NCBI GenBank assembly: GCA_022414725.1
Contig: CM039462.1
Span: forward strand, 41,187,622-41,251,621
DNA from: Microglena sp. YARC
Taxonomy: Eukaryota; Chlorophyta; Chlorophyceae; Chlamydomonadales; Chlamydomonadaceae
Direction: 5' to 3'
DNA length: 64,000 bases
The notes beneath the pieces are model-generated. The model made no database searches and was not told the DNA's origin. It was given only the letters and a program-made list of their open reading frames with translations. A program made the translations under genes and the position numbers. Numbering within the stretch: the stretch's first letter is position 1; each line of letters opens with the position of its first letter. Of the stretch, positions 429 through 62,300 are shown piece by piece.

Positions 429-621
429 TTGTACGACGCGAGCTCAAGTATGACGCCGATGGACATCCAGGTGATGCTTTACAAGTTGCTGGGCGCACTG
501 AACTTCACCCACTCTAAGGGCTACATGCATCGCGACATCAAGCCACGCAACGTGATGGTCGACATCAACAAGCAAGAGCTGCGGCTTGTGGATTGGAACA
601 TTGCTGAACGATATATTCCAG
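429..621 (+). CDS. Kinase exon a (catalytic loop)
   Basis: Begins after CACAG and ends at CCAG before GTGCTC, phase 0 in and phase 1 out. It encodes the helix before the catalytic loop, [10 protein letters not shown] and VDWN. It is the longest of four copies in this region and the only one with the upstream helix, so it is taken as the real exon. Confidence 0.8.
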
Positions 622-3600
622 GTGCTCAATTTTTTATTTAGTTTAATATTTAATTATGGATGCTCAAATTTCGTTTAATTTCATTTATTTTTTTTATCTC
701 AGGTGCTCAATTTTTAATTTAAGCTTTGCTCACTCTAAGGGCTACATGCATCGCGACATCAAGCCACGCAACGTGATGGTCGAAATCAACAAGCAAGAGC
801 AGCGGCTAGTGGATTGGAACATTGCAGAGCGATACATTCCAGGTGCTAAATTTTGTAATTTAATTTTTATTTGGTTTTTAATTCTAGGTGCTCAATTTTC
901 ATTTCATTTCATTTATTTTTTTATTCCAGGTGCTCGATTTTTAATTTAATTCATTTTTTTTCTCTCTCAAAGGGCAACATGCATTGAGACATCAAGCCAC
1001 GCAACGTGATGGTTGATATTATGAAGCAAGAGCTGCGGCTTGTGGATTGGAACATTGCGGAACAATATATTCCAGGTGCGCAATTTGTAATTTAATTTGA
1101 TATTTAATTCCGAGTGCTCAAATTTCATTTAATTTTTTATTGCAGGTGCTTGATCTTTAATGTATCTCCATAGGTGCCTAAGTCCAAAAACGCCCTAAGT
1201 TGGTACAAGATTGTGGTACAGAGCCGTACAGGCCCCAAAATGCTCGGAATCGAATTCTGTCTGGCCCACCTTTCGCGCAATTGTGTCAGCTATGCGTACA
1301 TGTTTTTCCGGTCCGCATTCGCATGCGGTCGCGAGCAGCCTTGTACGGAAGGCTGGTGGCAGTACATCAGATGTGCGATAAATTGTGGTACAAATCCAGA
1401 TCGCGCCAGACACGAGGCCGCGCGAGCTATTCCGAATCATGTTACCGCGGGACGAAAGGCTTATCAAACCCCTACCACAAGGTCGAAGGCTGCGCTTCAG
1501 CCTTGGCCTCGGAATTTACTGAGATAGCAGTACAACTCAAAAATTCACCTGATCACCTCCCAATCCCACCTCCCAACTTGAGATTTCACCCCCTTTCCCA
1601 AATCAAAAACTAAATTCAGATGTGGATGTTTGAAACAAAAGTTGGAAAAAAAAGTTACTTTCTGAATATTTTTTAAAAATAAATTTGAATTTTGAAATTT
1701 GAATTTTCAAAAAAAAGAAAAAGAAATAGTCTTCGTGCTACGAAGCAAAGCTAAGACGTAAAATGAAACAATTCAGCTTGTGCAGCGTTGTACCACACTT
1801 AGAGCACCCACAATATGTAAATAATCAGTATTTTTGGGGTCCATATTCACCTTCTGCCCATGTACTGCCATCCAAAACCTGATGTAACAATTTCTCATGA
1901 GGAAAGATGTGCACAATAGGGCTATCAACTTTTATTTTACGAAAACTTGTTTTTTGATAGCGATAGGCTCCGTTCCACTTCTACATAAAATCCGTACCGA
2001 CTTAGGGAGCCCCATAGTGAAAACAATCACATCTTTTGCTTTGCCTGCTTCCCACAACCTGAGAGAACCCAACTCTGAGTATTTATGTGTTGAACTGATG
2101 TGGTTAGGTAACTTATTAGCAAAAAAAAGTTTTCTTTGGACTTGAGGTAATAGGTGAAAACCATCCGTACCACTCAGGGTCGGACTTAGGCACTTCTGGA
2201 GATAATTTAATATTTAATTCCGGGTGCTAAATTTTTAATTTCATTAATTTTTAATTCAAGGTGCTCAATTTTAATTTTAGTTAATTCGATTTTATTTGTC
2301 TCACTCTAATGGCTGCATGCACCGCGACATCAAGCCACGCAATGTGATGGTCGACATTAACAAGCAAGAGCTGAGGCTTGTGGATTGGAACATCACGGAA
2401 CAATACATTATAGGTGCTCAAATTTTATTTTAATTTGATTTAATTTTCAATTCCAGGTGCTCAATTTGTAATTTGACACCTCAGCCAATTTTCCGCGTCG
2501 CTTTCGACGCTGCATAGGACTTGTTGTTTTGTGCGACGCTTCGCAAATGAGTGACTTGGTGCGATCACTCTGCCCCCTGAATCAAGCGGAGAGTGCACAG
2601 AAGTTCGGGGGGGGGCATTTCTGACTAGTCTATCCAGACCCATGCATCGTCATGCAACAACGGCATGCACATACACACACATTCACACCGTTTGTAGGTC
2701 AGACAGGGTGTATGGGTGGAAGAGTGCTGTTAAGGTTGCAGAACAAGGTTGCCAAATTAGCAGTGTTAAAAAATTGCGGAACCATACACTCCAGGAAAGG
2801 CACAGTCACCATTTCTATTTTGTACTGCATGTGAGCTGTATAGAATCTCTCATATGGGTGTGTTTGATGCTTTGTACTGCAGGTGAGCTGTACAGCATGA
2901 ATTGCACGATACTTCCTGCGCCAAACCAGGCGTAACCAAACCAAACCAAATCCAGCATACCCATGCCCCCCCCCCCCTCTCTTGTACTGCAGGTGAGCTG
3001 TACAGCATGAAGTGCATGACACTCCCGTACAAGGCACCGGAGCTTCTGACAAATATGCAGGTGGGCATCATTTTTACTTCATTTATATTGAAAGGATTAT
3101 TTCTTATTTTATTTGTATTGAAAGGATTCTTTCTTATTTTATTTGAATTTAAAGGATTCTTTCTTATTTTATTTGAATTGAAAGGATTATTTCTTATTTT
3201 ATTTGTATTGAAAGGATGATTTCTTATTTTATTTGGATTGAAAGGATTATTTGTATTGTATTTGTATTAACAGGATGATTTCTTATCGTATTTGTATTAA
3301 ATTGATTATTTCTTATTTTATTTGTATTGAATGGATTATTTCTTATTTTATCTGTATTAAATGGATTATTTCTTTATTTGTATTGAATGGATTATTTCCT
3401 ATTTTATCTGTATTAAATGGATTGTTTCTTATTTTATCTGTATTAAAAGGATTATTTATTATTTCATTTGTATTGTAAGGATTATTTCTTATTTTATTTG
3501 ACGAACTCAGGGCCCCTCAGGTCACTTCAACGATTGTTTGGGATTCAGGCCATCAGTGCTTTTTCTTTTTAAGCCCTTCCTATACGGTTTGGCAAGTACC

Positions 3601-6600
3601 TTTAGCCTATTTGGCCTACCCCTGGACTGTAACATACATACATTTGAATTGAAAGGATGCTTTTTTAATATTATTATTTTATTTGTAATTAATATATTTT
3701 TTATAATGTTTATTTCATTTGTATCGGAAATATTTTCATCCCAGGAAGTGGAACCCCGTACACAAAACAAAGCACACTTAGGGCTTAGGCCCACTGATTG
3801 TTTTCAAAACTGAAAGTGATTTTTCTAGCTTTATGGTTTTAGGTCTCCTCCAGGGACAGCGTTTTAATGCTTTATATAGCTATGTATAGCTTTTAGTAGC
3901 TTTTTATGGCCATTAGGGGCCATTAAGGACCATTAAAAAAGCTGTGTATAGCATTAATTTCACTAAAACGGGGTAAAAACTAGCAATCGCTATATATAGC
4001 GGGGGGGGAAATCCCTAAAGGACCGAAAGGCCTACAGATGTAATACAGATGTTCCCGTTGGACAGACTGTACCAGGGGGGCGCGAGAAAGTTTTCTGTGC
4101 ACCCTCAACGGCCCTACGACGTCTGAGGCTTCAGCATGGCCGCTCTTGCATTCGGCCGCACCGTCACCAACACCACACCGCCAGCAACACACCGCCAGCA
4201 ACACCAACACTGGGGCCCACCACCAAAAGCACTCACTTCTACCTCTATCTGTCCGGCAACTGCTCAGGACTACCATTAATCTGTTCACCTCCGGGGCTAC
4301 AGCCTGAGCATGGCCGCTCTCGCATTCGGCCGCACCAACACCAACACTACACCGCCAGCAACACACCGCCAGCAACACACCACCAACACCACACCGCCAG
4401 CAACACACCGCCAGCAACACCAACACTGGGGCCCACCACCAAATGCACTCCCTTCTTCCTCTATCATGGCTGGCATCTGCTACCACACCAACAACACCAA
4501 CAACACCAGCAACAACACCAACAAAAGCACTCACTTCTGCCTCTACCTGGCCGGCATCTGCTCAGGACTACAATTACTCTCTTCACCTCTGGGCCTTTGG
4601 GCTGAGCATGGCCACTCTTGTTTTCCACCACACCAGCACACCTACACCACCAACACCAACACCAACACAACTCATCTACCACACCACTCCACCACCACCA
4701 CCACCACCGGGGCCAAGCACCAAAAGCACTCATTTTTACCAGGACTACGATTACTCTATCGACATGTGGGGCTTTGGCCTGAGCATGGCCACTCTCATAT
4801 TCCGCCACACCAACACCACCAACACCACACCAACACCAAACCAACACCAACACCAACACCACACCAACACCAACACCGCCACACCAACACCAACACACCG
4901 ACACCAACACATCCCCTCTACCACACCACACCAACACACCGACACCAACACAACTCCTCTACCACACCACCACCACTGGGGCCAAGCACCAAAAGCACTA
5001 ATTCCTACCTTGATCAGGACTTTGTTTTTTTTGGTTAGAGTGCCCTTTTTATAATGATATTCGCCTCCGCTACCAGAAGCTGTTTACAGATGTTTATAGG
5101 CATGTCCATGAAGATACCGACTTAACCGTATGGAATGTAGAATTCTGCGATTCCACATTCAGAACCTTTATGAATGGAAATGGCACTTAGACTTTTCGGA
5201 GCAACCAAGTCGACTATCTTTCTACTTGTAGAAGAGTAAGACAGGAAGCCCTGGACTGCTTAGTGGCACCGTAATTTAGTATCCTTTTTTCCCTTGTGAC
5301 ATCTCATTTGTTAGCTTCTTACCTCCGCCACCGTTAGTGATTGAGATCTGGGTACTGCCCTAGGGGGTATAATACCAACGCCACCAAAACGGTGGTTGGG
5401 AGTTTGTTTTTTTTGTCCTCGACACACCCCTGATGTAATATTTTGTTTGCTTAGTGGGTGCTTTTTCTTTTTGTTTAAAGCACAGAGTCTCATACACCCT
5501 CGCCAAGTAGACTTTAACATGTAATGTAATGTAATGTAATGTAATGTAAGGACTACCATTACTCTCTTTACCTGTGGGGCTTTGGACTGAGCATGGCCAC
5601 TCATATTTCGCCTCATCAACACCAACACCGCCACACCAACACCACCGGGGCCAAGCACCATAAGCACTCATTTCTACCTTTCTCAGGACTACCATTACTC
5701 CATCGACGTCTGGGGCTTGGGCCTGAGCATGGTGCACTTATATTCCGCCACACCACAACCAACACCGCCACACCACCTGCACCAGCACTGGGGCCTATCA
5801 CCAAAACCAACACCAACACCAACACCAACACCACCGCCACACCAACACCACCAACACCGCCACACCAACACCACCAACACCGCCACACCAATACCACCAA
5901 CACCGCCACACCAACACCACCAACGCCACACCAACACCACCAACACCGTCACACCAACACCACCAACACCGCCACACCAACACCACCAACACCGCCACAC
6001 CACACCACCAACACCAGCACTGGGGCCTATCACCAAAACCAACACCAACACCAACACCACCACCGCCACACCAACCACACCAACCACCACCACGCCACAC
6101 CAACACCACACCACACCACACCAACACCACCACACACCACACCACACCGCCACACCAACACCACCAACACCGCCACACCAACACCACCAACACCGCCACA
6201 CCAACACACCACCAACACCCGCCACACCAACACCACCCAACACCAACCACACCAACACCACCAACACAGCCACACCAACACCACCAACACACACACCAAC
6301 CACCAACACCGCACACCACACCACCAACACCGCACACCACACCACCACCCGCCACCCACACACCAGCGCTGGGGCCTATCACCAAAACCAACACCAACAC
6401 CAACACTACCACCGCCTCACCAACACCACCACCACCGCCACACCAACACCACCAACACCGCCACACCAACACCACCAACACCGCCACACCAACACCACCA
6501 ACACCGCCACACCACACCACCAACACCGCCACACCACACCACCAAACACCAGCACACCAAAACACACACACCAACACCAACACCACACCACCGCCACACC

Positions 6601-62114: not shown

Positions 62115-62129
62115 CTGGAGACACGGGGG

Positions 62130-62300
62130 GTCCAGTATGTGTGTGTGTGTGTGTGTGTGTGTGTGTGTGTGTGTGTGTGTGAACTTAGTCTTGTAGACGC
62201 CCATTAGATCAATGAGCATCAACGTGACAGGAACAATGATCCCTGACCACTTGGTGATCATGGGCGTGAAGTCCTCAAAGCGATTCTGGAGATAGGGGGT
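62130..62300 (-). repeat. Upstream copy of the NicO-like penultimate exon start and (GT)n
   Basis: 62290-62180 on the minus strand repeats acceptor + RFEDFTPMITKWSGIIVPVT to YKTKF, then passes into a (CA)n run (62135-62180 as GT). A smaller piece with acceptor + RFEDF lies at 63650-63676. Confidence 0.85.

Follow-up and report, generated by a model that had tools for sequence, protein, structure and literature searches.

We analysed a window of 64,000 nucleotides from the green alga Microglena sp. YARC (C1:41187622-41251621; source genome 568 Mb in 2,390 contigs), in which four genes were considered: a CK2-alpha-like kinase gene, a gene of the GH88 family, a third gene (gene 3) and a gene putatively named NicO. 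Exons of all four are flanked by tandem copies of their own boundaries, as a preliminary description made from the sequence alone had proposed. Copies upstream of an exon carry the end of the intron, the AG acceptor and the start of the exon, and copies downstream carry the end of the exon, the GT donor and the start of the intron. We call these copies decoys, and the copy that is attached to the rest of the exon the real edge. Gene models were built with a custom GT-AG spliced aligner that accepted only GT or GCAAG at donors and AG at acceptors, and Tandem Repeats Finder (TRF) returned 193 rows for the window, of which 150 were examined.

Exon edges of four genes are copied into their introns

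We rebuilt the GH88 gene by spliced alignment as eight exons at 19492-38719 on the plus strand, and its assignment to the GH88 family was supported. Tandem copies bearing the edge and its AG or GT were found on the intron side of 11 of the 14 internal edges at a lenient threshold (22 bp, 72% identity, E up to 1), which has no chance control behind it, and of 8 of the 14 at a strict one. Our main counts leave out self-matches that are shorter than 40 bp, below 72% identity, too distant or of low 3-mer complexity. At the lenient threshold, six of seven acceptors had upstream copies (exons 2-7) and five of seven donors had downstream copies (exons 1, 2, 3, 5 and 6), including a copy of acceptor 5 at 31497-31583 that was absent from the preliminary description. 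Donor 4, donor 7 and acceptor 8 had no edge copies even at this threshold.

The other three genes carried similar copies. Three of five tested kinase edges had them (donor 622, acceptor 2991-2992 and the acceptor before 14933), and acceptor 429 and donor 3061 had none at the lenient threshold. In gene 3, copies were found at one of five tested edges (acceptor 46804); its last exon lies outside the model. The NicO donor after the exon at 61946-62114 was followed by 14 aligned downstream copies, and an upstream exon copy was seen by eye only. Two arrays, that of NicO (60608-61580) and another at 48666-48784, contain plant-type telomere repeats, (TTTAGGG)2. The genome also holds many PF00069 matches of near-equal length (about 1,008 bp, profile positions 1-255), several of them on small contigs, which may represent a multiplied or mobile gene family.

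Table 1. Exons and boundary copies in the window (positions in nucleotides)
Feature	Position	Strand	Basis
Kinase exon with copies of its donor but not of its acceptor	429..621	+	
End of this kinase exon and donor, downstream copies	731..1164; another at 2302-2445	+	
Upstream copy of kinase acceptor 2991-2992	2872..2916	+	
Upstream copies of the last kinase exon's acceptor	12681..14837	+	
Last kinase exon, stop codon 15023-15025	14933..15025	+	
Copies across the kinase stop codon, up to 92% identity, no splice site	15115..15573	+	
GH88 exon 1, donor GT at 19544	19492..19543	+	spliced alignment
Exon 1 end and donor, downstream array	19596..19999	+	self-match; TRF 105-bp unit
Intron end, AG and exon 2 start, upstream copies	19997..20496	+	self-match
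GH88 exon 2	20780..20893	+	spliced alignment
Exon 2 end and donor, nine short scattered downstream matches	22354..23443	+	lenient threshold only; TRF 73-bp unit
Intron end, AG and exon 3 start, upstream array	23865..24096	+	90-97% identity
GH88 exon 3	24298..24390	+	spliced alignment
Exon 3 end and donor, downstream array	24439..24963	+	self-match
Intron end, AG and exon 4 start, upstream array, 128-bp units	26835..28150	+	self-match; TRF
GH88 exon 4	28198..28340	+	spliced alignment
Single upstream copy for exon 5	31497..31583	+	lenient threshold only
GH88 exon 5	31720..31961	+	spliced alignment
Exon 5 end and donor, downstream array, about 100-bp units	32005..33490	+	TRF; self-match
Exon 6 upstream copies	34199..34849	+	self-match
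GH88 exon 6	34908..35205	+	spliced alignment
Exon 6 end and donor, downstream array, 160-bp units	35273..36355	+	TRF; self-match
Exon 7 start, upstream copy with hexamer repeats	36898..37466	+	lenient threshold only
GH88 exon 7	37571..37704	+	spliced alignment
GH88 exon 8, ends at first in-frame stop	38464..38719	+	spliced alignment
Gene 3 acceptor 46804, upstream array	45955..46644	+	
NicO last exon with stop	58919..59262	-	spliced alignment
Copy across the NicO stop codon, 92% identity	58688..58875	-	
NicO exon end and donor, 14 aligned downstream copies	60564..61741	-	
Exon of the putatively named NicO gene	61946..62114	-	spliced alignment

The pattern extends across the genome

As a comparison sample from the same genome we took chaperonin (PF00118) genes, which were chosen by domain and not by repeats. 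Of 15 chaperonin regions taken, 8 were modelled and 7 left out, with homologous PDB chain sequences and one Volvox protein as queries and one further homologue set aside; the CCT1 protein of this genome is 77-78% identical to proteins from Volvox, Sanguina and Myrmecia, which marks the source as a chlorophyte. In these eight genes, 21 of 72 trusted edges were spanned by a tandem copy at most 5 kb away, and the pattern is therefore genome-wide. Edges near spurious small exons (C1a, C5a, C5b and C2d), at gaps in C3a and in the first introns of C4a lie outside the 72. Successive versions of the models gave 20/61, 20/71 and finally 21/72, the last including an added C3a acceptor for which a decoy had been aligned in place of the real edge. 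Tandem copies are abundant more generally: in ten arbitrarily placed 5-kb windows they covered 27% of positions (range 0-88%). The units are about 100-200 bp long, and the smallest spacing per covered base has a median of 160 bp.

All 92 edge-spanning alignments lay on the intron side of their edge (35/35 in GH88 and 57/57 in the chaperonin genes), which agrees with the proposal that upstream arrays copy acceptors and downstream arrays copy donors, a polarity that is partly definitional in that we name real whichever copy is continuous with the remaining exon. A single C3a edge once pointed the opposite way, where the aligner had taken a decoy as real. Whole-exon copies, in which both splice sites would be duplicated, were found for 0 of 47 chaperonin exons and 0 of 8 GH88 exons, where 0.7 and 0.1 were expected by chance; because units of about 105 bp make these expectations so small, the absence tells little. 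The claim that no array mixes both edges agrees with these counts and gains little weight from them. One apparent whole-exon copy (1/48) was rejected, as the last C3a exon that it involved is a decoy in its own right; P0121 ends in a C-terminal peptide that was absent from the fetched stretch.

Edge-linked arrays are larger than the others. With exons masked, they had a median of 4.0 copies versus 1.4 in the chaperonin genes and 5.2 versus 1.6 in GH88. Tandem coverage around edges was 0.32-0.37 from -400 to -100 and 0.25-0.27 from -80 to -40, reached 0.31 between -20 and +40, and was 0.11-0.20 inward of +80.

Arrays that hold a coding border are in excess

We compared the arrays, defined as linked clusters of self-matches, with a null in which the arrays along a gene were collapsed and each was represented by a single unit at a random position. 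Arrays with a coding border were two to three times as frequent as this null predicts. A trusted edge was contained in 22 of 45 chaperonin arrays, against 7.5 ± 2.4 expected, and in 8 of 16 GH88 arrays, against 1.6 ± 1.2 expected. In the chaperonin genes, 19 arrays fell in introns or at untrusted edges (30.3 expected) and 4 within exons (6.5 ± 2.3 expected). When model exon ends were included, 24 of 45 chaperonin arrays held an edge, with 2 of these 24 on untrusted ends, versus 10.4 expected, a 2.3-fold excess.

The excess held at identity cut-offs of 72, 80, 85 and 90% and under three complexity filters. Without a complexity filter, 25/54 chaperonin arrays (13.5 expected) and 9/21 GH88 arrays (2.9 expected) held an edge, and at 90% identity or more the counts were 5/11 (1.4 expected) and 4/7 (0.3 expected). 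As a control for the longer recognisability of a conserved exon copy, we masked the exons, under a link rule that is possibly generous to edge arrays. Edge-linked arrays then numbered 18 of 38 in the chaperonin genes (10.4 ± 2.7 expected, P = 0.004, 1.7-fold) and 8 of 16 in GH88 (2.1 ± 1.3 expected). At 85% identity or more, the masked chaperonin count was 9/17 versus 4.0 expected (P = 0.007), some of these possibly being pieces of one array; at 90% or more there was no chaperonin excess (2/6 versus 1.5), and GH88 gave 4/6 versus 0.6. Sliding whole arrays also left an excess, with 24/45 versus 17.2 ± 2.8 in the chaperonin genes (P = 0.013) and 8/16 versus 4.3 in GH88 (P = 0.035).

A circular block-shift null was tried and set aside. 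It gave no excess (21/72 edges versus 23.0 ± 3.4 in the chaperonin genes and 8/14 versus 6.6 ± 2.0 in GH88, and likewise with four other parameter sets), and we consider it uninformative because it moves the array bodies that fill the introns beside the edges. In the chaperonin genes, 13.5 of 17.8 kb of repeated intron sits in arrays that contain exon sequence. For the same reason, block shifting set the expectation for whole-exon copies too high, at 6.5, compared with 0.7 under unit placement. An apparent shortage of exon-confined matches under this null (5/48 versus 10.2, P = 0.0125), which had been a candidate sign of selection, was not significant when counted as arrays (4 versus 6.5).

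Copies are not restricted to splice junctions. Among the chaperonin arrays, 19 of 45 had neither a trusted edge nor an exon-confined match, as did 8 of 16 in GH88, and copies cross stop codons, where there is no splice site; the suggestion that only junction-spanning duplications are tolerated is not supported. Of 17 stops tested, we dropped L004 and L005, for which an incorrect reading frame had been picked, and L006, a second entry for the gene C4a. Of the 14 usable stops that remained, 4 were crossed (those of the kinase and NicO in the window, and 2/11 outside it). Three of the 14 lie 30-36 codons beyond homology (C5a, C2c and GH88), and C2c is among the four crossed; a C3a stop crossing flagged earlier was not trusted. 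Since this rate, on small numbers, is similar to that of splice edges (21/72), splice signals as such seem unnecessary for the copying.

Copied exon pieces decay as intron sequence

The copied exon pieces, with a median of 58 exon bases per decoy, decay neutrally, like intron sequence. In 119 decoys of known frame, private changes were spread evenly over codon positions 1, 2 and 3 (57/1,975, 59/1,971 and 54/1,950), and 21 of 24 decoy indels were not multiples of three. Stop codons numbered 24 in 2,367 decoy codons, compared with 30.6 ± 5.5 in a neutral simulation. On these counts we reject translated decoys. Differences between real and decoy copies were more frequent at third positions (0.186) than at other positions (0.103-0.113), as only the real exon would be held to its protein.

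Splice dinucleotides were retained in 101 of 124 decoys (GT in 62/75 and AG in 39/49); decoy sites are thus not purged by selection. The bases of decoy splice sites were kept at 224/248 versus 2,094/2,447 in the flanks, in array copies that are not independent of one another and with a per-position profile that has no clear peak. Given their neutral decay, the decoys are probably skipped by splicing. The simplest reading of these comparisons is that a copy with one edge is probably not recognised as an exon (exon definition), with which the retained decoy sites and the neutral decay agree.

The GH88 copies also appear in a public protein model. P0001 contains one extra exon 5 copy, which corresponds to window positions 33227-33286, and four extra exon 6 copies, drawn from the five full matches at 35444-36155; it is without the last GH88 exon. 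A relative, P0002, has the same exon 5 and exon 6 junctions with no insert. To judge from its name alone, P0001 looks like a gene prediction.

Possible origins of the border excess

One possible explanation, which we favour tentatively at somewhat below an even chance, is that short tandem duplication is very frequent throughout the genome and that the border excess arises mainly from biased survival and growth. A duplication that started in an intron and ended in an exon would leave one intact exon and copies with a single splice site, and this geometry would account for the polarity of the arrays. The one-edged pseudo-exons would go unrecognised by splicing, be skipped and decay as intron sequence, while the copy at the border would be pinned by selection. 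If an array collapsed by pairing of the border copy with a decayed decoy, a damaged exon piece would enter the message; edge arrays would for this reason be hard to collapse and free to grow. Arrays confined to introns would be gained and lost freely. The larger size of edge arrays fits such a survival effect.

Several observations weigh against biased survival. It predicts that edge arrays should be older, but mean identities are about equal (82.2% in edge arrays and 83.3% in others), and it predicts that the excess should fade among young arrays, but at 90% identity or more the excess was kept in both samples, and in GH88 also with exons masked. A depletion of harmful duplications, which filtering by selection should cause, was not visible either among whole-exon copies or among in-exon arrays, at the counts given above. 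No start codon was crossed by copies (0/2). Differences between decoys, like those between real and decoy copies, were more frequent at third positions (0.190) than elsewhere (0.128-0.136); this rise is explicable by copying at different times, although that is not proved. Finally, the expected numbers vary with the definition of arrays, with unit lengths and with the collapsing of introns.

Alternatively, the duplication process itself may prefer exon borders, for example through breaks coupled to transcription or splicing, nucleosome edges or the step in composition between exon and intron. We regard this as a serious if less probable explanation. The two- to three-fold excess, which includes arrays of at least 90% identity, is what such a bias would produce, as is the masked chaperonin excess at 85% identity or more, with the caveat about split arrays given above. 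By contrast, copies run across stop codons about as often as across splice edges, on small numbers, the youngest chaperonin arrays show no excess once exons are masked, and coverage has no sharp peak at the junction, being lower 40-80 bp away and highest deep in the intron. Junctions had been proposed as preferred duplication points; that they are favoured stands, whereas a bias of the duplication process itself does not follow, as biased survival or growth would mimic it. A more specific form, in which a process of replication, transcription or RNA processing aimed at coding borders makes duplications of 100-200 bp two to three times commoner there and the spliceosome ignores the one-edged products, is conceivable but somewhat doubtful. 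Between the two causes of the excess, we lean slightly towards survival.

The excess would be an artefact if arrays with a conserved copy simply stayed recognisable for longer. The drop of the chaperonin excess from 2.3-fold to 1.7-fold with masked exons is in line with this, but the excess persists under masking and the mean identities are equal, which makes detection bias improbable as the explanation. We consider it very unlikely that the copies are functional and kept by selection, whether as protein repeats or as alternative splice sites: the four exon 6 ends and one exon 5 end in P0001 and the frequent retention of GT and AG would speak for such a role, but the decoys look neutral in their codon-position changes, indels and stop codons, the P0002 junctions are free of inserts and P0001 is by its name a probable prediction. 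Least probable of all is an artefact of assembly. Tandem arrays are hard to assemble, and exact copy numbers may be wrong, but the copies differ individually (67-97% identity, with one 100% match), unit sizes vary by gene and the arrays lie on several contigs.

Other repeats in the window

A dispersed element occurs at 23318-23372 (-), 45386-45400 (-) and 45482-45537 (+) and was not called by ARAGORN or Rfam. It contains what we take to be tRNA-like A-box and B-box motifs and is possibly a tRNA-derived short interspersed nuclear element. Long simple repeats comprise (GTATGT)n over 954 bp at 25008-25961, a (CAACGA)n-like stretch of 472 bp at 36932-37403 and 111 bp of poly-C at 47176-47286. A GCGC-rich dispersed repeat was recognised by eye on both strands, at 13230-13450, 27080-27240, 34380-34570, 52500-52680 and 58500-58680.

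Discussion

Internal gene duplication, a term used for the duplication of any segment within a gene, is described as common in a passage that cites Gao and Lynch 2009 (PMC4974935). The arrays described here share head-to-tail units, graded divergence and many copies with arrays of the minisatellite type, but about half of them overlap an exon edge. In introners, one element is common to the introns of many genes; the edge units carry the exon of their own host gene.

The closest parallels concern intron gain. In excerpts of a study of the potato RdRp gene, a tandem-duplicated unit that is part intron and part exon created a new intron, and an 83-bp tandem duplication confined to an intron is also described (PMC4974935). 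As in the AGGT model of intron gain illustrated by that excerpted potato case, the duplicated segment holds splice signals, and most decoys here keep their AG or GT. Unlike in that model, existing introns have been lengthened, with many copies that lie inside introns bounded by intact exons; to judge from how these copies decay, the message is probably unchanged. In Drosophila, according to the portion of a report consulted, duplications within coding exons make new introns and the duplicates supply the splice sites (PMC2891723); duplicated splice sites are thus shared with the alga, but that portion describes no arrays at existing edges. Excerpts of a paper on another green alga, Haematococcus lacustris, report short repeats in complex tandem patterns over tens of kilobases and do not mention exon edges (PMC7617258). 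We found no report of exon-edge tandem copies as a genome-wide pattern in titles and the openings of abstracts, a body of text that mostly excludes subscription literature.

Either cause of the excess would be notable: mutation directed at the edges of coding sequence, or selection on exons that ratchets the growth of neighbouring introns. In either case introns would lengthen without the help of mobile elements. Automatic annotation may add false protein repeats at such loci, as the five decoy copies in P0001 illustrate. The arrays are also natural tests of splice-site choice, in which each decoy offers the same local sequence with no second exon edge. If a border-aimed process is at work, then among many near-identical sites only the one attached to an intact exon would be used.

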